Positions 11,019 to 62,148 of a DNA stretch of 64,000 bases are shown piece by piece. A program made the translations under genes and the position numbers. Under the pieces are notes generated by a model that was not told the origin of the DNA, did not search any database, and worked only from the letters and a program-made list of their open reading frames with translations. The DNA is from a virus, in the IMG/VR virus record IMGVR_UViG_3300031251_000001, positions 124,001-188,000 of that record. One strand, written 5' to 3'. Each line of letters opens with the position of its first letter. Within the stretch, counting starts at the first letter, position 1.

Positions 11019-11303
11019 CTAACGGCCGGGGACGCGCTTGAACACCTGACGCTCGGTCGCCTGCCCCTGTCTGACGATCTCATCCTGGAGGTAGTCATAC
11101 AGGTTGATGATACCATCAGCGACGTTCGGCGGGCTGGGAGCGTTATTCAGCGAAGCGGTCATCGCCTGGGCTTGTTTGAGCAGCCAGGCCTTCTGCTTGT
11201 GAAGATCGCCGAGGCCCAGGGACAGGGTCACTTCGATCGTGACGCTTTGGTTGCGGGGCTTCAAAATACGTATTTTGGAATCAGACTTGGCTCGTTTGGC
11301 CAT
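11019..11303 (-). CDS. hypothetical protein, 94 aa, with operator-like palindrome inside the coding sequence
   Basis: Unrecognised small basic protein. The ATG at 11303 has AAGGA at good spacing and overlaps the upstream gene by 23 bases. The 16-bp palindrome common to eight loci lies inside codons 9-14 and is translated as SKIRIL. In the other seven loci the palindrome is non-coding. Confidence 0.65.
   Translation of the reverse strand: MAKRAKSDSKIRILKPRNQSVTIEVTLSLGLGDLHKQKAWLLKQAQAMTASLNNAPSPPNVADGIINLYDYLQDEIVRQGQATERQVFKRVPGR
11262..11277. promoter_or_regulatory. 16-bp palindrome CAAAATACGTATTTTG, site 1
   Basis: Exact copy, 3 bases after the stop of the gene ending at 11281 and inside the first codons of the next gene. 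The minus-strand flank TCTGATTC is identical to that of site 6. Confidence 0.85.
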
Positions 11304-13164: not shown

Positions 13165-13653
13165 CTACTCCTCATTGGCGATACGATTGAGCAGGTCAAG
13201 TAAAGCCTGCTCGACCGCGACTCGTATCTCCAGTTTAACGTCCTCGGTCTGTGGTTCAGGCTGGACCAAGGGCGAACTGGTGATGTGAAGGACGTAACCC
13301 TGCCCCAGCTTCTGGTAGCTGTAGTCGAGACGCGGGACGCCGAGGGGCTTGGGTTCCTTGCGCTCGGGCCGATTGAGGATCTTCATTTCCTCTTTGGTGA
13401 CGCAGCGATGGATCTGCAGCGTCTTCTGTGCCCAGCCAAGCCAGCGGTTGAACTTATCACGGCGTCCCGCCATGAGGAAGTCGTCCATCTGGTCGCACAT
13501 GTAGAGGACGTGTTGGAGGTCGTCAGCGATCCGGGTGGCGTCCTCGTGCTGGTGCGGCACGTCAGGCGCGCCGGCGCAGCGCGACAGCAGATTCGACTTG
13601 GCCACTCGTCGCATGACGTCGACGATCTTGTGGCCGTGCTTATTGGAGATCAA
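13165..13653 (-). CDS. hypothetical protein, 162 aa
   Basis: TTG start at 13653 overlapping the stop of the amidotransferase-like gene, with GGAGG ten bases upstream. Helical protein with several Cys and His (RCAGAPDVPHQHED, LYMCDQMDDF). No recognised family. Confidence 0.6.
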   Translation of the reverse strand: MISNKHGHKIVDVMRRVAKSNLLSRCAGAPDVPHQHEDATRIADDLQHVLYMCDQMDDFLMAGRRDKFNRWLGWAQKTLQIHRCVTKEEMKILNRPERKEPKPLGVPRLDYSYQKLGQGYVLHITSSPLVQPEPQTEDVKLEIRVAVEQALLDLLNRIANEE

Positions 13654-14396
13654 TACTGGCTTACCTCCGACATGAAGCGTTCGTCAGCGGCGTGAATGAA
13701 CGCTTTGAACAGGTTGATGTCCAGGGCCGAGCTGGTCTCAGAGTGAGGGTGCCACTGGACGCCAATGCAGAACCAGAGGGGATCGACAGGCTCGATCGCC
13801 TCGATCACGCTGTCCAGAGCCATCGCACAGACCTTGAACCCCGGTCCCGTCTTGTGGACGGCCTGCGAGTGATAACTATTGACCCGGATCTCGCCCGGCT
13901 GGTCGTAGATCTTATCGAGCTGGGTCTTGGGGAGGATGTTGATCGCGTGACGGTGCGGGCCGCCAGTGATGTCCTTGTGCGGCAACGCCTTGGGCATATC
14001 TTCAGCGATGTAGGCGTAGTTGGTGCCGCCCGTCACCAGGTTGAGTTCCAGCATCCCGTTGGCAATCGCCAGGATCGGGAGCTTCTTGCTGACCGCGTAC
14101 TGGGCCAGGGCAAAATCAAAATCCTCCTTGATCTTGTTCATTTCCCTGCCGGAGGGATGTGTCAATTGCTTGGTTCGCCTCTGACTGATGCAGTCGGGCG
14201 AGCCGGCCAGGATGATGCCATTCAGGCGATCAAGGAGGCCGTAGTCCATGTACTCGAGCGCAACAGGAGCCAGGAGAATCGGGCTTCCTTCGGCCTGGTT
14301 GACGCAATCGATATAGCCGGCATGCAGACGGGTTTGAGCCCCAGCGATCTTCCCCGCCGGCATATAGTCCAGGTTAATTCCAATCAGTGGTCGCAC
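13650..14396 (-). CDS. peptidase C26/glutamine amidotransferase-like protein lacking the catalytic Cys
   Basis: 248 aa. The fold signature of gamma-glutamyl-GABA hydrolases is clear: IGINLDY at the N-terminus, LNGIILAGSPDC (family LLLTGGxD), LPILAIANGMLELNLVTGG (family LGICRGMQLLNVxxGG), VNSYHSQAV and IGVQWHP. The nucleophile position (about residue 112) is Ala instead of Cys and the following Arg is Asn, so hydrolysis by the normal route is not expected. The His of GVQWHP remains, but the usual following Glu is displaced. GTG at 14396 taken as start just after the upstream stop; TTG at 14417 is the alternative. It may act as a binding protein. Confidence 0.8.
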   Translation of the reverse strand: MRPLIGINLDYMPAGKIAGAQTRLHAGYIDCVNQAEGSPILLAPVALEYMDYGLLDRLNGIILAGSPDCISQRRTKQLTHPSGREMNKIKEDFDFALAQYAVSKKLPILAIANGMLELNLVTGGTNYAYIAEDMPKALPHKDITGGPHRHAINILPKTQLDKIYDQPGEIRVNSYHSQAVHKTGPGFKVCAMALDSVIEAIEPVDPLWFCIGVQWHPHSETSSALDINLFKAFIHAADERFMSEVSQY

Positions 14397-17394: not shown

Positions 17395-17725
17395 CGTCGT
17401 CGTTGTCGGTGTTGACAGAGTGAACTCGTTCATAACACAGGTCCAAAGGGTACAAGTCGTGAATCATGGCTTCGAGGTCCATGTCGTCGACATTCTGGAG
17501 GGAGTTGCAGATGTGATCGATGACCGCTTGACGATCGAAGGTTTCAGTCCGGAGAGGAGAATCGACCAACAACCGTCTGAGTTTGCCGGCGTTCTCCTCG
17601 TTGACGGAGATGTCGTAGCGGTCCTTGCCAAGTGGCAAGAACTCAAACCAGCAACCGTCGGCCGCGATCTTCTCCATGATGCGGATGGCCTTGCGGACAC
17701 CGTTGACCTGAATATGGAAAGTCAT
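17303..17725 (-). CDS. hypothetical protein, 140 aa
   Basis: Start ATG overlaps the upstream stop as ATGA. Acidic C-terminal region (VNTDNDDDEVTITF) followed by a basic tail (TSTRKKTTRKAG) that could contact nucleic acid. No recognised family. Confidence 0.65.
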   Translation of the reverse strand: MTFHIQVNGVRKAIRIMEKIAADGCWFEFLPLGKDRYDISVNEENAGKLRRLLVDSPLRTETFDRQAVIDHICNSLQNVDDMDLEAMIHDLYPLDLCYERVHSVNTDNDDDEVTITFVVAAPEPTKPSTSTRKKTTRKAG

Positions 17726-17946
17726 TTGGGTTTCTCCAGGTGGACGATGCAGATCCCCAGGGCGTCCACGACTTTGGGGACGCTCTTGGGGTTGTCGTGA
17801 ATCATGCACATGCGTTTGGGGTTGCTGGGGTGGGAGGAGTACGAGCGGGCACAATCGGCACAGCTGGGTTGATCAATGAGACTTGGAGACTGCACGCGAT
17901 ACGTGCGGTCGCGCTTTGGCTGCAGCTTTGGCTTGGACAGCGGCAT
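17722..17946 (-). CDS. hypothetical small protein, 74 aa
   Basis: Starts inside the end of the endonuclease VII gene (74-base overlap). It has CADCARSYSSH and CMIHD, which could form a small zinc-binding site. Translationally coupled to the next gene. Confidence 0.5.
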   Translation of the reverse strand: MPLSKPKLQPKRDRTYRVQSPSLIDQPSCADCARSYSSHPSNPKRMCMIHDNPKSVPKVVDALGICIVHLEKPK

Positions 17947-18409
17947 AGAGCTCCTTGTGTTTCATCAGGTACCGGATTGCTGCACGAAGAACAGAGATGT
18001 TGTCCTTCAGGAGTCCCAGCCCTCGATTACACGAGTCGCATAGCACGCCTCTTACTTTTCCAGTGACGTGATCGTGGTCGACTGGAAATGTTTTGTGCGC
18101 ACCATAGTGGCCATCCTGTACACGATCTTTAGTTCGGCAGATCGCGCACTTGCCACCTTGAGAGACGAGAATGTTATCGTAGTCATCCAATGTAATTCCA
18201 TATTTCTTAGCGAATCGCAGTTTACGCGCATACCTTCTCTCTCGCTCGCGATACCCAGGTTCGTTCTGTCGTCTCCAACGTGAGCGAGCTATACCACCTT
18301 CTGAGTGGCACTTCTTGCACCAAGATTGACCCGATGTTTTGCTGTACCTCGGAAAGAACTCGTCGGGGTGTTTAGACAGTTTGCACTTAGTGCAGGTTAT
18401 CTTTTTCAT
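17873..18409 (-). CDS. recombination endonuclease VII-type HNH nuclease
   Basis: 178 aa. An N-terminal double zinc knuckle (CTKCKLSKHPDEFF, WCKKCH) is followed by a basic linker and the endonuclease VII domain: YGITLDDYDNILVSQGGKCA, CRTKD, PVDHDHVTGKVRGVLC and CNRGLGLLKDN. This is the T4 gp49-like resolvase fold, commonly with a zinc-knuckle front in phages. It may resolve branched DNA or act as a free-standing homing enzyme. The start at 18409 lies directly next to an inverted repeat overlapping a candidate promoter. Confidence 0.9.
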   Translation of the reverse strand: MKKITCTKCKLSKHPDEFFPRYSKTSGQSWCKKCHSEGGIARSRWRRQNEPGYRERERRYARKLRFAKKYGITLDDYDNILVSQGGKCAICRTKDRVQDGHYGAHKTFPVDHDHVTGKVRGVLCDSCNRGLGLLKDNISVLRAAIRYLMKHKELYAAVQAKAAAKARPHVSRAVSKSH

Positions 18410-18438
18410 ACTGACAGTTTACAATAAAACCTGTCAGT
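18410..18438. promoter_or_regulatory. inverted repeat, candidate operator
   Basis: ACTGACAG at 18410-18417 and CTGTCAGT at 18431-18438 are perfect 8-bp inverted repeats separated by 13 bases. They bracket the -10 element of the candidate promoter for endonuclease VII and end at its start codon. Confidence 0.5.
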
Positions 18439-18449
18439 GTGAATACCAA
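18421..18449 (-). promoter_or_regulatory. candidate sigma70-type promoter for the endonuclease VII gene
   Basis: On the minus strand TTGGTA, a 17-base spacer, and TATTGT. Each hexamer matches the consensus at four positions. Lies 12 bases before the start codon, inside the 132-base divergent gap. Confidence 0.4.
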
Positions 18450-18478
18450 CAGCCAGGGGTAGCGAGGTGCGGGCCATG

Positions 18479-18524
18479 TTGCTATACTCCCTCTGTTGAC
18501 AACCCGTTGTGGGTCGTCGGTTAT
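18479..18524 (+). promoter_or_regulatory. candidate promoter region of the plus-strand moron
   Basis: An extended -10 element, TGCTATACT (18479-18487 plus following C), is followed by TTGACA at 18496-18501 with GGTTAT 17 bases later. Either could drive the plus-strand gene at 18542. The TTGACA spacer contains a partly inverted AACCC/GGGT pair. Confidence 0.5.
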
Positions 18525-18541
18525 GTTGTGAAAGGATTCAG

Positions 18542-18946
18542 ATGTTCAACGCTACGAATACCAAAGCCCAGGCGATTGCCCAGACGCTGGATAAGAGTGT
18601 GCAGGGGTTCCTGCCCATCCTGATCATCGTGCAGATCATCGCTGCGGTACTGCCCGAGCTGATCAAGTGCTTCATCCCCAAGGACCCCGCCCAGGCCAAG
18701 GATTACGTCAACAAGCGTTATACCGCTGCCAACCATGGTGATCAGTATGGTGGCTACAACCCGGTCACAGTCAAGCGGGTCATGAAGCTGGTACGTAGCC
18801 AAGCCGCGACTCACGGGCACCACGACATGAGTGATCCCGCTGCTCGCGATGCCGCGATCAAGATGCTGGAAGACATCCGCACCAGCGACCCCCAGAGCAT
18901 GCAGGACGTCATGACAGAGACATACCAGTCACTGAAGCGCAACTAG
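18542..18946 (+). CDS. plus-strand accessory (moron) protein with one membrane segment
   Basis: 134 aa on the strand opposite to almost all neighbours. A hydrophobic helix (GFLPILIIVQIIAAVLPELI) near residue 20 is followed by a soluble, helical C-terminus (KRVMKLVRSQAATHGHHDMS). AAAGGA precedes the ATG. It has its own promoter and a strong intrinsic terminator, the arrangement of phage morons, often expressed from prophages or early to change the host. Function unknown. Confidence 0.75.
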   Translation: MFNATNTKAQAIAQTLDKSVQGFLPILIIVQIIAAVLPELIKCFIPKDPAQAKDYVNKRYTAANHGDQYGGYNPVTVKRVMKLVRSQAATHGHHDMSDPAARDAAIKMLEDIRTSDPQSMQDVMTETYQSLKRN

Positions 18947-19445
18947 CCGGCGTGACGGGTGCAACAGGCAACAGGGTCATTGGTCCATCGACCAGTGACC
19001 CTGTTAGTTTTTGTATCACCTGCAGCATGGGTTTCTGGGGCTGCTGACGATGCAGCTCTTTGAGACGTGTTTGCGTGCGACCCATGTTGTAGGCAATAGT
19101 CCTGATCTGACGTCGCGAGGTCATCCCGCCCCGAATCTCCTTCATTGCCGTCGCCAGGATACAGCCATAGGTGTGGCGGTGGGAGTGGAAGTAGAACAGG
19201 CTGAGTGACGGTGGTAGCCACCACTCACCGATCGTGGCCCCAGCCAGACCACCGACGTTCTTGTCTTTGGAGAGATAGGCAATCACCCGGTCGGTATAAG
19301 CGATGATGACTGCCTTTTCCGGGAGATCCATCGTTGCCTCGACGTACTTGGCGAAGAGGCTCAGGCAAGTGCTACGCATGTCGAACGCCACATCACAATT
19401 ATCTTCAGCAAACATGATCAGATCGTTGATGTTGAGCGTTATCAA
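18909..19445 (-). CDS. hypothetical protein, 178 aa, ending in convergent overlap
   Basis: TTG at 19445 with GGGGG upstream, nine bases after palindrome site 2; the longer ORF would translate the palindrome. Mixed alpha/beta protein (VIIAYTDRVIAYLSKD, then WWLPPSLSLFYFHSHRH). The last ~35 codons read backwards through the terminator and the end of the plus-strand moron, so the C-terminus may be a by-product of moron insertion. Unrecognised family. Confidence 0.65.
   Translation of the reverse strand: MITLNINDLIMFAEDNCDVAFDMRSTCLSLFAKYVEATMDLPEKAVIIAYTDRVIAYLSKDKNVGGLAGATIGEWWLPPSLSLFYFHSHRHTYGCILATAMKEIRGGMTSRRQIRTIAYNMGRTQTRLKELHRQQPQKPMLQVIQKLTGSLVDGPMTLLPVAPVTPASCASVTGMSLS
18970..19012 (+). 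terminator. strong intrinsic terminator of the moron
   Basis: Plus strand: a 16-bp perfect stem (AACAGGGTCATTGGTC and its complement) with a CATC loop, followed by AGTTTTTG. Lies 24 bases after the stop of the plus-strand gene. Confidence 0.88.
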
Positions 19446-19454
19446 TTCGACCCC

Positions 19455-19470
19455 CAAAATACGTATTTTG
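19455..19470. promoter_or_regulatory. 16-bp palindrome CAAAATACGTATTTTG, site 2
   Basis: Exact copy, 3 bases after the stop at 19474 and 9 bases before the TTG start at 19445; the ribosome binding site GGGGG abuts it. Confidence 0.85.
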
Positions 19471-19473
19471 CGG

Positions 19474-19959
19474 TTAGGCCGCTTCTTCCCGCCTGACGCG
19501 GATGTTGACATCCTCCATCCAGGTGACCAGGTTCGCCACCAGCTTCTCGTCAGCGGGTGTCTTAGTGTCTTCGACGTTATCGATGCTGCGGGCAATGGCC
19601 CTGACCTGCTCGATCGTGACGGTCGTCTTGCGGTAGACCGACTTGGGCTTCTTCTCGCCCCGTGGCTTCCGCTCCTTAGCGACCTTAGCTGGCTTCTCGG
19701 GCTTAACGATCAGCTCCTTGACGCCGCCCATCTGGCCGAGCGTGTGGATACAGTTGCCACAGGCCGCACGGCGGAACTTGGTGTCCTTGAAGTCGTAGAC
19801 GATGGTGCCAGTAGAGTCGAGACGACCGTGGCAGAGACCGTCGTCGCCGTTGACCTCCAGAATGATGCCGTTAGGCGCGGTGAGATCGTGTTTGCATTCT
19901 GGGCAGGTAGCGAGCGGTTTGTCAGCGAAGAGATAACGAACAGGCAGTTGTGCGGCCAT
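19474..19959 (-). CDS. zinc-ribbon protein, 161 aa
   Basis: CPECKHDLTA near residue 20 and CGNCIH near residue 75 make a split four-Cys site. A Lys-rich stretch (KPEKPAKVAKERKPRGEKKP) and a helical C-terminus with RAIARSIDN follow. It may bind nucleic acid. ATG at 19959 with AAGG and GGGGAG upstream; the longer ORF was rejected. Confidence 0.7.
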   Translation of the reverse strand: MAAQLPVRYLFADKPLATCPECKHDLTAPNGIILEVNGDDGLCHGRLDSTGTIVYDFKDTKFRRAACGNCIHTLGQMGGVKELIVKPEKPAKVAKERKPRGEKKPKSVYRKTTVTIEQVRAIARSIDNVEDTKTPADEKLVANLVTWMEDVNIRVRREEAA

Positions 19960-19991
19960 CCTTGGCTCCCCTGTGGTGTGATCCACAGACT

Positions 19992-20318
19992 TTACTGAAC
20001 CTGGCATGGCTGTGCAAGGCGACCTTGGTAGGCCAGAGTCATCAGCCGGCTGCACAGGCCCATCTGGCGGAGCAGGGAAGGCATGGGCTGCTTGTGGTTG
20101 ATGTTGAAGGTGAACTTACCGGTCTCCGAGTCGAAGATCACGAGTTTGGGGATGCTGTCGGGCAGCGGGCGACCACGGTAAGGTGCGAAATCGACGGCAT
20201 GCCAGACGGTGCCGTGGAGACAAGGATCCGGCTCGACAGGAGTCAACCCGATCGACTTGCAGTCTTGGTGGAAATCGAAGTAGGTGATGAAATGGTGTTC
20301 CAGCATCATGCGCTCCAT
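19992..20318 (-). CDS. hypothetical protein, 108 aa
   Basis: ATG at 20318 (or GTG at 20327). The start lies right behind the U-tract of a terminator hairpin and has no clear ribosome binding site. Several His and aromatic residues (MLEHHFITYFDFHQD) in the N-terminal part. Unrecognised. Confidence 0.6.
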   Translation of the reverse strand: MERMMLEHHFITYFDFHQDCKSIGLTPVEPDPCLHGTVWHAVDFAPYRGRPLPDSIPKLVIFDSETGKFTFNINHKQPMPSLLRQMGLCSRLMTLAYQGRLAQPCQVQ

Positions 20319-20321
20319 GAA

Positions 20322-20358
20322 AGACACAAGCCCAGGATGACGGGGGTCATCCTGGGCT
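20322..20358 (-). terminator. intrinsic terminator overlapping the next start region
   Basis: Minus strand: AGCCCAGGATGAC CCCC GTCATCCTGGGCT, a 13-bp perfect stem, followed by TGTGTCTTTC. It follows the gene ending at 20390 and its tail touches the next start codon. Confidence 0.8.
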
Positions 20359-20389
20359 CGCAGGTAGGGGAGACGGTCCGATAAAGTAG

Positions 20390-20830
20390 TTAATGCACTT
20401 GCGACATTTTTTCAAGTTCTTTGATAGTGACCATGCCGAGTGAACCATCGGGTTTACGGTATTGTACCACAGGCTCGCCGTTCCTGGCTGATAGTGCCAG
20501 ATCGAAGCCTTGCGGTTGGCCACCTGTCAGTGTTTTGTTGCGGTGAATGCCGACTACCGGGCCTTCATTCTTGGTCACGTACATGGAGACCATGCCCTGA
20601 GTCTTATTGTCGGTGATCCAGACGCCCGTGCAGTCGCCCTGCGACGTGATGACGATACCGCCTACCTTGATCTGCTTGGCCTCGATCGTGTCAGCGACGA
20701 GGCAGGCAGCTCTTACTCGTTCTTCCTGGCTGGCGGTGGCCGTAATATGGGCCATGATCAGGCCGATGAATAAAGTAGAGAGCAAAATAACGATCAACTG
20801 GCCTCGCGGGCTGTTTTTGGAAAAAGGCAT
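20390..20830 (-). CDS. membrane-anchored protein, 146 aa
   Basis: A single hydrophobic segment (LIVILLSTLFIGLIMAHITA) near residue 12 is followed by a soluble domain with two Cys (AACLVAD, GDCTGVW) and beta-strands. Probably anchored in the inner membrane with the domain outside. It has its own good promoter and a terminator and so may be independently expressed. Unrecognised. Confidence 0.7.
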   Translation of the reverse strand: MPFSKNSPRGQLIVILLSTLFIGLIMAHITATASQEERVRAACLVADTIEAKQIKVGGIVITSQGDCTGVWITDNKTQGMVSMYVTKNEGPVVGIHRNKTLTGGQPQGFDLALSARNGEPVVQYRKPDGSLGMVTIKELEKMSQVH

Positions 20831-20877
20831 GTCGACCTCCTTGTTAGGTTAAGTTCTCTCATCTTCATCTAATACAG

Positions 20878-20906
20878 ATTGTAACGCGATCGCCTGATCG
20901 TGTCAC
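20878..20906 (-). promoter_or_regulatory. sigma70-type promoter
   Basis: Minus strand: GTGACA (5 of 6 consensus), exactly 17 bases, TACAAT (5 of 6). Lies in the 90-base gap upstream of the membrane protein at 20830; transcription would start about 40 bases ahead of its ATG. One of the best promoter matches seen in the window. Confidence 0.65.
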
Positions 20907-20920
20907 CAAGGTGAGCCTTG

Positions 20921-21430
20921 TCAAGGCTTGGGCGGATTGGCGAACACGGCGGTGCTGTAGTAGTCCCCGTCATCGCCTTTGGTGGTGGCAATTCCGACGA
21001 ACTTATAGTCGCCGAGCATGTTCCTGTTGTGCCCTGGACTGGCTGCCCAGGCTGCTACCGTCTTCTCCGGTTTGGTCATTTGAGCGATGTTTTCCGCTAC
21101 TGCTGACCACGCAAACCCAGCTGCCTCGACTCGCTGCTCGGGCCGGGAACCATCGGTGCCGATGTGATCCAGGCGAGCGTGTTTAGCACAGTCATCAGAC
21201 TGCCGCTGGGCTGCTTTGTCCAATTGTGAGTTCTCGATCAGAGCTGCCCACCCGTTCGCCTGGCGATACGCATTGATCTCCTTCAGCAGAGTAGGCGGCT
21301 CGGAGACAGCGCTGTTCACCATGGGCATCGGTGAGAATGATAAAAGATCCTGGGTTGGCCGAACGGTCGGCAGGCTGGACAAGGATACCAGCGTCAGACA
21401 GATCAGATAGAGCTCTTTCATCAACAACAT
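20921..21430 (-). CDS. exported CAP (SCP/PR1) domain protein
   Basis: 169 aa. Signal peptide-like N-terminus (MLLMKELYLICLTLVSLSSL), then a CAP domain: EINAYRQANGWAALI, LDKAAQRQSDDCAKH, HIGTDGSRPEQRVEAAGF, VAENIAQM and WAASPGHNRNMLGDY. The His and Glu of the cleft are present. ATG at 21430 has GGAGG eight bases upstream. The first 236 bases are shared, in another frame, with the SEC-C gene. CAP proteins are secreted lipid-binding or hydrolase-like proteins; in a phage this suggests action in the periplasm. A second CAP protein lies at 41525. Confidence 0.85.
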   Translation of the reverse strand: MLLMKELYLICLTLVSLSSLPTVRPTQDLLSFSPMPMVNSAVSEPPTLLKEINAYRQANGWAALIENSQLDKAAQRQSDDCAKHARLDHIGTDGSRPEQRVEAAGFAWSAVAENIAQMTKPEKTVAAWAASPGHNRNMLGDYKFVGIATTKGDDGDYYSTAVFANPPKP

Positions 21431-22235: not shown

Positions 22236-22808
22236 TTAATCAGAGGGCCGACGTTGCGTCAATGCCAGTGCCCGAAGCAGTGAAGACCGCCTGACCGCCG
22301 GTTCTGTTGTCGTTACGGTGGTCACAGTGACATCAGGTTTACTCTCGGTATTGGAAGCCGCCGGCGTCACAGCCTTCTTAGGGACTGGTGCTTGCTGCTT
22401 CTTAATCTCAGGAGCGGGCATCGTTTGCTTCTGTACGCTGGGTGCCGGAGCGGGAGCTGCGGTCGACCCGGAACATGAAGATCCTGTGCAGGACGATCCA
22501 CTGCAACCTGTGCCGCGATGTGCGAAGAGCTTCGAGATGCAGCTGGTGTGAGCTGCCTTGGCGTGGCCCGTGCAGCTGGATCCAGTGCAGGCTGCGCTAG
22601 TGACGGTGGTGGTCACGGTCTTCGTGATCGTGGCACCTGTGCAAGAACTACCCGTGCAATGACTGGCGTGAACACGACGAGCGTGCCCGGTGCAAGCAGA
22701 ACCGGTACAAGCGGAGCCTGTGCAGCCGGCGGCCTGGACCGTGGCTGGCTTGGCGGCAGGAGCGTCCGAGACGCCTGCCAAAAGACCGACTAACAAAATC
22801 GAATACAT
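22236..22808 (-). CDS. exported Cys-repeat protein (C-T-G-S-S/A-C-T-G units)
   Basis: 190 aa. Hydrophobic leader (MYSILLVGLLAGVSDAPA), then about eight copies of a CTGSSCTG/CTGSACTG unit, singly or in pairs, interrupted by His-rich linkers (GHARRVHASH, GHAKAAHTS), then a Pro/Ala/Lys-rich stretch (APAPAPSVQKQTMPAPEIKK) and a Thr/Val-rich region. The CxxxxC spacing suggests disulphide or metal binding on the cell surface. Same design as the exported protein at 7717 (CANGTCS units). No known family. Confidence 0.72.
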   Translation of the reverse strand: MYSILLVGLLAGVSDAPAAKPATVQAAGCTGSACTGSACTGHARRVHASHCTGSSCTGATITKTVTTTVTSAACTGSSCTGHAKAAHTSCISKLFAHRGTGCSGSSCTGSSCSGSTAAPAPAPSVQKQTMPAPEIKKQQAPVPKKAVTPAASNTESKPDVTVTTVTTTEPAVRRSSLLRALALTQRRPSD

Positions 22809-23178: not shown

Positions 23179-24303
23179 TTATCTACTGACCCGTCCTGAT
23201 TTCAGGATGTTCGGGTCAAGGCTGGTGGAAGCACTCGACAGCTCCGGCACCCTCGCGAAAGGATTCCAGCTGATGATGCCGTCATCACCGCGAAGCATGC
23301 CGTACCAGGGCCTGGGGTTCTGAATGTCGTAAGCGTGCCGCTGGGTGTCCCGGTGGCAATCCACACAAGAAGCCTTCGAGGCGGAGAAGAAGGCCCCATT
23401 GTACCTGGGTGGCACGATCGAGTCCCGTTCGGTCGTTGTCGCCATACCGCACTCTATGCCGTCCTGGACCAGCCAGGGCTCTCCCAGGGCAGGACGGAAG
23501 GGCATGGTCTTGAGTGTCTGCTTGGAGACCTCCTTCTCGATCTTAGGCATCTCCACGACTAACGCAGTGCGTGGCTTAAAGAGTCGAGGGTGAAGTGACG
23601 GGAAGATCATCTTGAGCGGGGAGGACGAGGGCTTACGATACTCGCCCAGCACATAGGTGAGCTCCGTCTCGTTGCGAACGGGTCGATAGACGTTGACGGC
23701 CCAGTGCTCAGCACCTGTTTCGTTGTCGGATTTGGTGCGAGTACGGATCTCGAAAGGGAGCTGGTCGCCGTCCGTGAACTTCTGGTAGAGGATCTCCACC
23801 AGGGTCGTTCCCTGGGGGAAGTCCCAGCTGACGGCGTCAGCGTACCGCTTCGATTCAGGCCGTCGCTCGGGACCGACGCTAATCTTGATGTTTCCAGTCT
23901 GAGGTAAAAGAAGGGCCTTCACGCTGGGGTAACCAGGTGGCAGTCCCGCTGTCCGAACCCACGGTTCTTCGTTGTTCGGTGTCCCGGCTGATTCGACTTG
24001 TTTCTCCATCGAGATATTACGGCCGGTGTAAACGAGGACCACGTGATCGGTGTTGTAGCGACTGGCGTAGACAGGATTGGATTGCGTAATGGTGCCTTCC
24101 TGGAACACCGTCGGCAGCGTGGTTTCGTCGTAGAACATCAAGTCGGGTGAGTTGAGGATCTTCTGCAGCTTCTCGTCATCGGTCTTGGGTAAGGTGCTGC
24201 GAACCTTGGCTTCTTGTTCCTTGGACATGTACCGCCACGGTGGCTCAGCCACGGCGGCGGGGACCAGGAACAGACACAGAGCTAAAGTGATGAGACGCAT
24301 CAT
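23179..24303 (-). CDS. exported protein with a c-type heme-binding motif
   Basis: 374 aa. Signal peptide (MMRLITLALCLFLVPAAVA), a long unrecognised beta-rich region, then CVDCHRDTQRHA at residues 313-324. CxxCH is the covalent heme c attachment site, and the preceding context (GAFFSASKASC) fits cytochrome c-like domains of bacterial exported proteins. A Met ligand could be M335 (WYGML). AGGAG precedes the ATG; palindrome site 3 lies 25 bases upstream. Phage-encoded heme c proteins are unusual. If maturation occurs it would be by the host Ccm system in the periplasm. Confidence 0.75.
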   Translation of the reverse strand: MMRLITLALCLFLVPAAVAEPPWRYMSKEQEAKVRSTLPKTDDEKLQKILNSPDLMFYDETTLPTVFQEGTITQSNPVYASRYNTDHVVLVYTGRNISMEKQVESAGTPNNEEPWVRTAGLPPGYPSVKALLLPQTGNIKISVGPERRPESKRYADAVSWDFPQGTTLVEILYQKFTDGDQLPFEIRTRTKSDNETGAEHWAVNVYRPVRNETELTYVLGEYRKPSSSPLKMIFPSLHPRLFKPRTALVVEMPKIEKEVSKQTLKTMPFRPALGEPWLVQDGIECGMATTTERDSIVPPRYNGAFFSASKASCVDCHRDTQRHAYDIQNPRPWYGMLRGDDGIISWNPFARVPELSSASTSLDPNILKSGRVSR

Positions 24304-24328
24304 GCGCTCCTAATAGTGAGGGGTAGGG

Positions 24329-24344
24329 CAAAATACGTATTTTG
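24329..24344. promoter_or_regulatory. 16-bp palindrome CAAAATACGTATTTTG, site 3
   Basis: Exact copy, 4 bases after the stop at 24349 and 25 bases before the ATG at 24303. The match extends one more base on each side (G...C). Confidence 0.88.
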
Positions 24345-34472: not shown

Positions 34473-34488
34473 CAAAATACGTATTTTG
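34473..34488. promoter_or_regulatory. 16-bp palindrome CAAAATACGTATTTTG, site 4
   Basis: Exact copy, 2 bases after the stop at 34491 and 13 bases before the ATG at 34459. The match extends to CCAAAATACGTATTTTGG. Confidence 0.88.
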
Positions 34489-41183: not shown

Positions 41184-41219
41184 GAAAACGAAAGACCCCA
41201 CGATGCAGGCCGTGGGGTC
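41184..41219 (-). terminator. intrinsic terminator joined to palindrome site 5
   Basis: Minus strand: GACCCCACG GCCTGCAT CGTGGGGTC, 9-bp stem, then TTTCGTTTT. The first base of the stem is also the last base of palindrome site 5, so the palindrome lies directly upstream of the terminator. Confidence 0.85.
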
Positions 41220-41234
41220 AAAATACGTATTTTG
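41219..41234. promoter_or_regulatory. 16-bp palindrome CAAAATACGTATTTTG, site 5
   Basis: Exact copy, 11 bases after the stop at 41246 and 56 bases before the ATG at 41162; fused to a terminator. Confidence 0.88.
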
Positions 41235-48164: not shown

Positions 48165-48180
48165 CAAAATACGTATTTTG
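48165..48180. promoter_or_regulatory. 16-bp palindrome CAAAATACGTATTTTG, site 6
   Basis: Exact copy, 3 bases after the stop at 48184 and 16 bases before the ATG at 48148. The flank TCTGATTC is identical to that of site 1 although the genes differ. Confidence 0.88.
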
Positions 48181-54816: not shown

Positions 54817-55347
54817 CTAGTTCACCTTGGCCCTCGTTCCAAATAGCCAGTCACACCCCAGGAAGATGATGTTGTAGTTGGTGCCCGGCTGCACGTGATG
54901 CAGCTCATGGTGATCGTGCAGGGCCTTCCAGAATGGCAGGTAGGGTACCCACCAGTGGGAACCGGGGATGTGCATCTCACTGTGGATGTAACCCCAGAGG
55001 GCGTGGTGGACGTACACCAACACGAAGAAGGCGATGGATCCGGCAGGGCTCACTAACCACATCAACCCGCAGACGAGGATCATGGGGATCCACTGCAAGT
55101 CGAGGGTCAGGTTGAAGAGGTTGCACGGGAGCTTGTCATCGTGATGGAAGTCCTCACGGAAGCACTGACCGTGGTGGAAGTGCCGGTGGGCTTCCAGGGT
55201 GTAGTTGAGCGTGGGGAACCAGCGATACATGAACGCTGGAAAGGATTTGCGGTGCATGAGGTAGCGGTGAATCGTCCACTCGAACACGCTCATGAACGGG
55301 TAGAACAGAGCCAGGACGGCGATCAAGACTGCGATGTTGGTCGTCAT
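54817..55347 (-). CDS. membrane fatty-acid hydroxylase/sterol desaturase family protein
   Basis: 176 aa. The His motifs of the superfamily are present: TIHRYLMHRKSF, EAHRHFHHGQ, YVHHALWGYIHSEMH and HDHHELHHVQPGTNY, with about four membrane segments (IAVLIAVLALFYPFMSVF at the N-terminus). Uses a di-iron centre and O2 to hydroxylate or desaturate lipid chains or sterols. Phage copies are unusual. It may modify host membrane lipids during infection. Confidence 0.88.
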   Translation of the reverse strand: MTTNIAVLIAVLALFYPFMSVFEWTIHRYLMHRKSFPAFMYRWFPTLNYTLEAHRHFHHGQCFREDFHHDDKLPCNLFNLTLDLQWIPMILVCGLMWLVSPAGSIAFFVLVYVHHALWGYIHSEMHIPGSHWWVPYLPFWKALHDHHELHHVQPGTNYNIIFLGCDWLFGTRAKVN

Positions 55348-56675: not shown

Positions 56676-56691
56676 CAAAATACGTATTTTG
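56676..56691. promoter_or_regulatory. 16-bp palindrome CAAAATACGTATTTTG, site 7
   Basis: Exact copy, 4 bases after the stop at 56696 and 9 bases before the ATG at 56666; its last G starts the ribosome binding site GGAGG. Confidence 0.88.
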
Positions 56692-57365: not shown

Positions 57366-57568
57366 CACGAGGCCATCCTTTCCCGGAGAGCAGCCTCCTT
57401 GGAGCGAGGCCGCGGCCAACCATGACGGTAGAAATAATTGCAACACTTCCGGCAGTAGTAGCCCTGATGCTTACCTTTGTCATTGACGACAACCAGGACC
57501 CTGCTGTAGGGAGTCTCGCAGTCCTTATTTTGACACTTTTGCTTTGGTACTCGGCGGTGACGAGGCAT
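57365..57568 (-). CDS. small zinc-finger-like protein, 67 aa
   Basis: KQKCQNKDCETPYSRV and YYCRKCCNYFYRHGW give a Cx4C and CxxCC pair; the remainder is very basic. ATG at 57568 with GGAG in the end of the PAP2 gene (44-base overlap). Possible DNA- or RNA-binding zinc ribbon. Confidence 0.62.
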   Translation of the reverse strand: MPRHRRVPKQKCQNKDCETPYSRVLVVVNDKGKHQGYYCRKCCNYFYRHGWPRPRSKEAALRERMAS

Positions 57569-58232
57569 TGACATCTCCAATGACGAGCCAGTTGATGGAC
57601 AGGGCGGAGCAGAAGAAGCCCAGGAGCCAACCACCGATGCAGTCGGTCGGGTAGTGGACGCCGAGCATGACGCGACTGGTGCAGACCAAGGCGATACCAA
57701 AGAAGGTAAGGCTGACGATGGTCCTGAACACGGCGTAGTTGATGTCGTACTCACTCCGACCTCGGGCCTTGAGCACCCTGTCGGCACGGATGTAGGCGAC
57801 ACGCAGAACGGTCCACCAGAAGGCAACAGCAGCGGAAGCATGGCTACTGGGGAAGGAGTAACCGCCCTCCTCGGTCAGGTGTGAGACGATGCTAGGTCGA
57901 TCGCGTTGAACGATGAGCTTCCAGGCCAAGTCGAAGATGAACGCCAGTGCGACAGCGATGAAGGCAGGTCTGGGGTCAGGCCGATCGTTGCTATTGGTGG
58001 GATCGACTGCGCAATAGAGCATGTAGATCAGCATGGCAAAACAGACCGTGGCGGCCGAGGCCCAGGAGGTGATATCCCGAGCCACGCTGGCCAGCGTGCT
58101 GTTGGTAATAGGGTGCAGCCAGGTGAGGATGGCGTCATCGAATCCCTGCGTCCAGCCACTCTTGACAGCGATGGCCAAGAAACCGAAGAGGAAGGCAAGT
58201 ACCCAGAGCTGCGTCGTGTGTTTGTTGTTCAT
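57525..58232 (-). CDS. PAP2-family membrane phosphatase
   Basis: 235 aa with about five to six membrane segments. The three catalytic motifs are complete: KLIVQRDRP (KX6RP, residues 105-113), SFPSSH (PSGH-type, about 126-131) and SRVMLGVHYPTD (SRX5HX3D, near 190). Dephosphorylates lipid or isoprenoid phosphates such as phosphatidate or undecaprenyl pyrophosphate. One of the RNA elements lies in its 5' region. In a phage it may alter envelope lipid or cell-wall carrier pools. Confidence 0.92.
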   Translation of the reverse strand: MNNKHTTQLWVLAFLFGFLAIAVKSGWTQGFDDAILTWLHPITNSTLASVARDITSWASAATVCFAMLIYMLYCAVDPTNSNDRPDPRPAFIAVALAFIFDLAWKLIVQRDRPSIVSHLTEEGGYSFPSSHASAAVAFWWTVLRVAYIRADRVLKARGRSEYDINYAVFRTIVSLTFFGIALVCTSRVMLGVHYPTDCIGGWLLGFFCSALSINWLVIGDVNASSPPSTKAKVSK

Positions 58233-62132: not shown

Positions 62133-62148
62133 CAAAATACGTATTTTG
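62133..62148. promoter_or_regulatory. 16-bp palindrome CAAAATACGTATTTTG, site 8
   Basis: Exact copy, 14 bases before the ATG at 62118. Unlike the other sites it does not directly follow a stop codon; a 231-base gap containing RNA copy C precedes it. Confidence 0.88.

Follow-up and report, generated by a model that had tools for sequence, protein, structure and literature searches.

Putative exported heme c proteins of an uncatalogued phage gene family

Most known phage genes for heme c proteins, SoxD among them, are pieces captured from host pathways that can be recognised as such. Phage-encoded SoxD was described as a heme c auxiliary metabolic gene carrying the cytochrome c CxxCH motif (Kieft et al. 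2021, PMC8190135). The gene analysed here, P0001, and its relatives are similar to SoxD in that a phage gene specifies a protein with CxxCH. SoxD can be recognised as a subunit of a host enzyme and has the motifs CxxCHG and CMxxC, whereas the P0001 family has no known host counterpart, gives no match to a cytochrome c domain and carries the block WYGxxRGxDGI. Phage-borne heme c proteins as such were already known, and what would be new, as read from the sequences, is this family of exported ones.

Three further systems were compared. Class I cytochromes c (PF00034 and relatives) share CxxCH and an export signal with P0001, but were rejected following inspection of Pfam matches (none), of the alignment (no conserved distal Met column) and of the position of CxxCH, which lies near the C-terminus of a protein predicted to be beta-rich. 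In cytochromes of the P460 and c'-beta type, a beta-rich domain is followed by a C-terminal CxxCH. This layout resembles that of P0001 and was taken as a lead only. The Pfam P460 model gave no match in 24 members at E ≤ 10, and P460 was rejected; no P460 structure was present among the 50 Foldseek matches listed, a fold comparison limited by low confidence near CxxCH. Finally, the planctomycete cytochrome C domain PSCyt1 (PF07635) was considered because a DUF1559 protein is encoded on two contigs with the heme-c-like gene; it was dropped, no match being obtained in the record at E ≤ 10 and none in family members.

Gene P0001 and the record that carries it

The window, the whole stretch of 64,000 bases that was analysed, covers positions 124001-188000 of a virus record with a length of 214,229 bases. 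The following features of the gene and its upstream region were annotated.

23179-24303, minus strand: gene P0001, predicted exported heme-c-like protein of 374 residues (ORF call, dicodon coding score, homology over its length)
24307-24311, minus strand: ribosome-binding site AGGAG (sequence)
24247-24303, minus strand: predicted Sec signal peptide, residues 1-19, cleaved between AVA and EPP (sequence reading, hydrophobic peak)
23353-23367, minus strand: CVDCH, putative heme c attachment motif, residues 313-317 (C313, C316 and H317 in 24/24 rows of the alignment)
24329-24344, no strand assigned: 16-bp palindrome CAAAATACGTATTTTG, 25 bp upstream of the P0001 start codon

The start codon of P0001 is ATG with AGGAG ahead of it, and its dicodon coding score, obtained with a model trained on its own record, is high (212). 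The minus strand holds 263 of the 273 called genes of the record, P0001 among them.

The record represents a tailed phage of jumbo size, whose large terminase subunit matched PHROG 675 (6.6e-39) and distantly resembled the counterpart of Salmonella phage Arash (30% identity); close terminase relatives were not found in viral contigs. The beta and beta-prime domains of its RNA polymerase share a single 1674-aa frame (L122:2635-7659; record 102635-107659, minus strand) with matches to Rpb2 domain 6 (1.2e-48) and Rpb1 domain 2 (9.8e-24). This frame is broken at approximately residues 931-1124 by an apparent intein, with a splice-junction-like GGYGGC...SNSKRV and a weak Intein_splicing match below cut-off. 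Relatives of the polymerase were located on viral contigs of 22-211 kb. The heme-c-like gene was absent from 7/7 of these relatives, whose records may be incomplete, so that it seems to be accessory in this lineage.

Other genes of the record were annotated as well. At record positions 17572-20883 (L117/L118), a family A DNA polymerase has a long N-terminal extension that, by sequence reading, resembles a uracil-DNA glycosylase domain. A phage-borne Peptidase_C26/glutamine amidotransferase (3.8e-41) is found at window positions 13650-14396. The gene adjoining P0001 (window 22236-22808) encodes a repeat protein with a hydrophobic start and many C-T-G-S-[SA]-C units, for which no Pfam family was found.

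The N-terminus of P0001, MMRLITLALCLFLVPAAVA followed by EPP, was read by eye as a typical Sec signal peptide with an AxA-type site. Hydrophobicity reached a peak of 3.1 at residue 4 versus a maximum of 1.0 elsewhere, and the leader contains no lipobox. CVDCH is the sole CxxCH among the 273 called proteins of the record; by composition, about 0.34 would be expected over the whole proteome and about 0.002 per protein of this length. Taken alone, a single CxxCH per proteome is suggestive, not conclusive. The motif is clearly above chance because both cysteines and the histidine are kept in all 24 aligned members. The sequence thus confirmed a 374-residue protein with a signal peptide and a single CVDCH, as described in the earlier note, and places it on the minus strand.

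The same note had P0001 directly controlled by the palindrome, which was not supported: the exact 16-mer occurs 22 times in the 214-kb record, some copies lying in genes or away from starts, and one more copy has one mismatch. Eight copies are located in the window (11262-11277, 19455-19470, 24329-24344, 34473-34488, 41219-41234, 48165-48180, 56676-56691 and 62133-62148). For 14 of the 22 copies, a minus-strand ATG follows within 25 bp downstream, distances being read from printed sequences; the others lie far from starts or inside genes, where they can read K-I-R-I-L. The 16-mer was absent from the 15 other phage records searched, and its 14-bp core on its own occurs so often in viral contigs that it carries no information there. 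CAAAATACGTATTTTG is a genome-wide element and may be an operator, part of a promoter or a partition-type site; control of the P0001 gene by it is a possibility.

Relatives, conservation and predicted structure

Searches with P0001 in Pfam, NCBIfam, PHROGs and 50,697 phage records returned no match, and scanning viral and bacterial collections for close relatives was equally negative. A match to PDB 4h4j (E 0.011) was attributed to chance, its alignment leaving out the CxxCH part. Similarly, nitrite reductase matches obtained with the profile (E ~0.1) were rejected, only the generic surroundings of CxxCH being covered.

Relatives were obtained from IMG/VR using a degenerate DNA pattern for W-Y-G-x-x-R-G-x-D-G-I and subsequently a profile. 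The pattern matched 21 viral stretches, 19 of which carried SCxxCH approximately 20 residues upstream, and the relatives found in this way were mostly long open frames of 323-607 residues. The profile search yielded 25 loci with tblastn E-values against P0001 between 3e-39 and 2e-6; in a pairwise comparison, P0001 and L151 matched with an E-value of 5e-43. No Pfam or PHROG family covers these relatives either. They come from about two dozen other uncultured phages and, together with P0001, probably represent a real, uncatalogued family of phage redox proteins.

The family alignment comprised 24 rows. Its only invariant Cys or His columns are C313, C316 and H317 (24/24); P114, G120 and E170 are the other invariant positions. 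Nearly invariant are W115, W160, P163, R187, W201 and the block R331-x-WYG-xx-RG-x-DGI-x-S. Every member whose alignment reaches the N-terminus has a hydrophobic leader there. For five close pairs from different contigs, dN/dS values were 0.07, 0.12, 0.10, 0.16 and 0.13, which represents strong purifying selection. The following features of P0001 were derived from the alignment and from structure prediction.

23275-23307, minus strand: WYGMLRGDDGI signature, residues 333-343, second conserved block (near-invariant W333, Y334, G335, R338, G339, D341, G342 and I343)
23263-23265, minus strand: Asn347, candidate second-heme-ligand column (His in 22/24 members, Asp in L154)
23683-23925, minus strand: predicted beta-rich core, residues 127-207 (AlphaFold2, 24-row alignment)

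The column of Asn347 corresponds to the His of S-[FW]-H-P-[FI], with P0001 and L154 as the two exceptions. This His is the sole near-universal candidate for a second heme ligand, a possible role; if it were the ligand, the iron site of P0001 would be open.

Between the leader and the heme-c-like part, two of the 24 members contain an N-terminal thioredoxin domain (PF00085; L173, 2.3e-9, and L175, 2.5e-13), which P0001 does not have. L173 and L175 are not grouped in the tree, and a single origin of the fusion is possible. Such fusions would point to a connection with thiol/redox chemistry in the periplasm. For L171, a gene ~560 bp upstream also gave a thioredoxin-like match, a weak one that stayed below cut-off (E 0.009).

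Taken together, the signal peptide, the triad kept throughout the alignment, the purifying selection and the two thioredoxin fusions give good support to the earlier reading of an exported protein with a heme c attachment site, and P0001 quite likely carries covalent heme c on CVDCH. Several observations were counted against an exported heme c redox protein: a universal second heme ligand is missing from the 24-row alignment, cytochrome c Pfam models gave no meaningful E-value in any member, the predicted structure lacks a convincing match, and the thioredoxin fusions are rare (2/24).

Alternatively, CxxCH could be a thiol redox or metal site. P0001 would then be zinc-stabilised or act as an exported disulfide reductase or oxidase, in keeping with the thioredoxin fusions of L173 and L175. 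Neither a cytochrome domain nor a matching fold was found, and P0001 itself lacks the candidate second heme ligand, both of which fit such a site. A thiol-redox CxxC, however, needs no His directly after it, whereas this His is present in 24/24 members, and a second universal Cys or His pair for zinc is absent. Moreover, an exported protein with CxxCH is a classical substrate of cytochrome c maturation. We consider a thiol or metal site unlikely.

Using AlphaFold2 on the 24-row alignment, a model with a pTM of 0.73 and a mean pLDDT of 70 was obtained; prediction from the P0001 sequence alone gave a pLDDT of 31. In the alignment-based model, residues 307-332, which include CVDCH, had a pLDDT below 50, a confidence at which the placement of CVDCH relative to a heme pocket is not readable. 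Foldseek searches gave no convincing match in the PDB (best E 0.19 among the 50 matches listed) or among viral models (best E 0.11). The predicted fold thus appears to match nothing solved, with low confidence in the CxxCH region. Of the earlier description as cytochrome c-like, CxxCH and the export signal stand, while the missing cytochrome c Pfam match, the beta-rich predicted core, the lack of a solved fold match and Asn in place of the candidate second ligand call for caution.

Genomic neighbourhood and hosts

Genes of the family sit in genuine phage genomes. In L153, the heme-c-like gene is flanked by a terminase of the GpA type and a portal of the lambda type, and an S49 peptidase follows. 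On the 274,625-base contig of L160, a major head protein (PHROG 138, 1.6e-80) is encoded ~6 kb upstream, and the neighbours in L163 include ribonucleotide reductase and a Dda-like helicase. As the phage backbones differ, the heme-c-like gene has probably moved between phages. P0001 is highly unlikely to be a chance ORF or to belong to a host whose contigs were misassigned, this explanation being largely refuted by the phage hallmark genes that flank several copies; the coding score, the purifying selection and the lack of any match in the 195, 399 and 297 genomes sampled from three bacterial phyla also speak against it.

The copies of L153 and L160 among virion genes would fit a heme protein built into the particle and active during entry. 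The Sec leader, however, directs the protein out of the cytoplasm, the site of virion assembly; the position of the gene also differs from phage to phage, and other copies have no virion genes beside them. A role in the virion is therefore very unlikely.

Near P0001, a gene for an exported protein with a CAP domain was annotated.

20921-21421, minus strand: exported CAP-domain (SCP/PR1) protein, near the P0001 gene (Pfam CAP, 2.8e-17)

In L181, a tree neighbour of P0001, a CAP gene (Pfam CAP, 1.1e-15) directly adjoins the heme-c-like gene, and the CAP proteins of the window phage and L181 share 33% identity (E 2e-18). CAP genes were found in 3/16 family records versus 0/12 unrelated viral records. 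Both phages also encode a fatty-acid-hydroxylase-like membrane protein (window 54817-55347 and L181:5410-5871; 25% identity, E 4e-11), the Pfam match being obtained for the L181 copy only.

The main rival to a periplasmic redox function is a heme c protein with an envelope role: an exported moron-type protein that alters the envelope or shields the infected cell, for instance from superinfection or oxidative attack. It is favoured by the exported CAP and fatty-acid-hydroxylase-like proteins shared by the window phage and L181, by the CAP counts given above, and by copies in or near virion modules (between terminase and portal in L153, after the head protein in L160). Many members nevertheless have no such neighbours, and the counts are too small for significance. 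The two readings overlap, because an exported heme protein could serve either purpose; the envelope role by itself we regard as rather unlikely.

Further genes were annotated in these phages. PAP2-family phosphatases are encoded by two phages with the heme-c-like gene (window 57525-58232 and L178:13488-14054), and a sulfatase (PF00884, 6.8e-24) is encoded at L162:13577-14866, ~2.5 kb from the heme-c-like gene.

The cytochrome c assembly gene PF01578 was found in 0/16 family phage records and, with the same search, in three bacterial genomes, which is consistent with heme attachment relying on host machinery. With respect to the hosts, a full-length DUF1559 protein is encoded ~1.1 kb from the heme-c-like gene on the contigs of L170 and L180; DUF1559 is a planctomycete hallmark and was found in none of 12 unrelated viral records and 14 control genomes. 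The DUF1559 protein at L170:12136-13086 has a prepilin-type N-terminus. Planctomycetota would thus be the most likely hosts. Host-genome sampling covered three other bacterial phyla: no family member was detected in 195 sampled genomes from the phylum of a Lentisphaeria genome, in 399 from that of Gemmobacter or in 297 from that of a Flavobacteriaceae genome. Two planctomycete plasmids likewise contained no family member.

Proposed function and its meaning

The reading that we prefer, and consider reasonably probable, is that of an exported, host-matured mono-heme c protein of an uncatalogued phage family with a periplasmic redox function during infection. P0001 would be exported by the host Sec pathway, following which the host cytochrome c maturation machinery would attach heme to both cysteines of CVDCH, with H317 as the putative proximal heme ligand. 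The beta-rich part before CVDCH and the WYGxxRGxDGI block after it would make up the rest of the protein and would probably form the heme pocket. In the periplasm of the infected cell, P0001 may then serve as a redox protein with one heme that transfers electrons or, alternatively, reacts with a small molecule. The suggestion in the earlier note of an auxiliary metabolic or envelope redox gene is accordingly a possible one.

A broader version, which we regard as possible yet doubtful, holds that the fold is unseen in solved structures and that the family is a class of exported mono-heme c proteins of unrelated large phages, taking over or protecting host periplasmic redox, in places as a thioredoxin-heme fusion.

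The alignment of the family provides a ready profile for finding hosts. If the preferred reading is true, some phages would invest in periplasmic redox chemistry of their own, dependent on cytochrome c maturation by the host.
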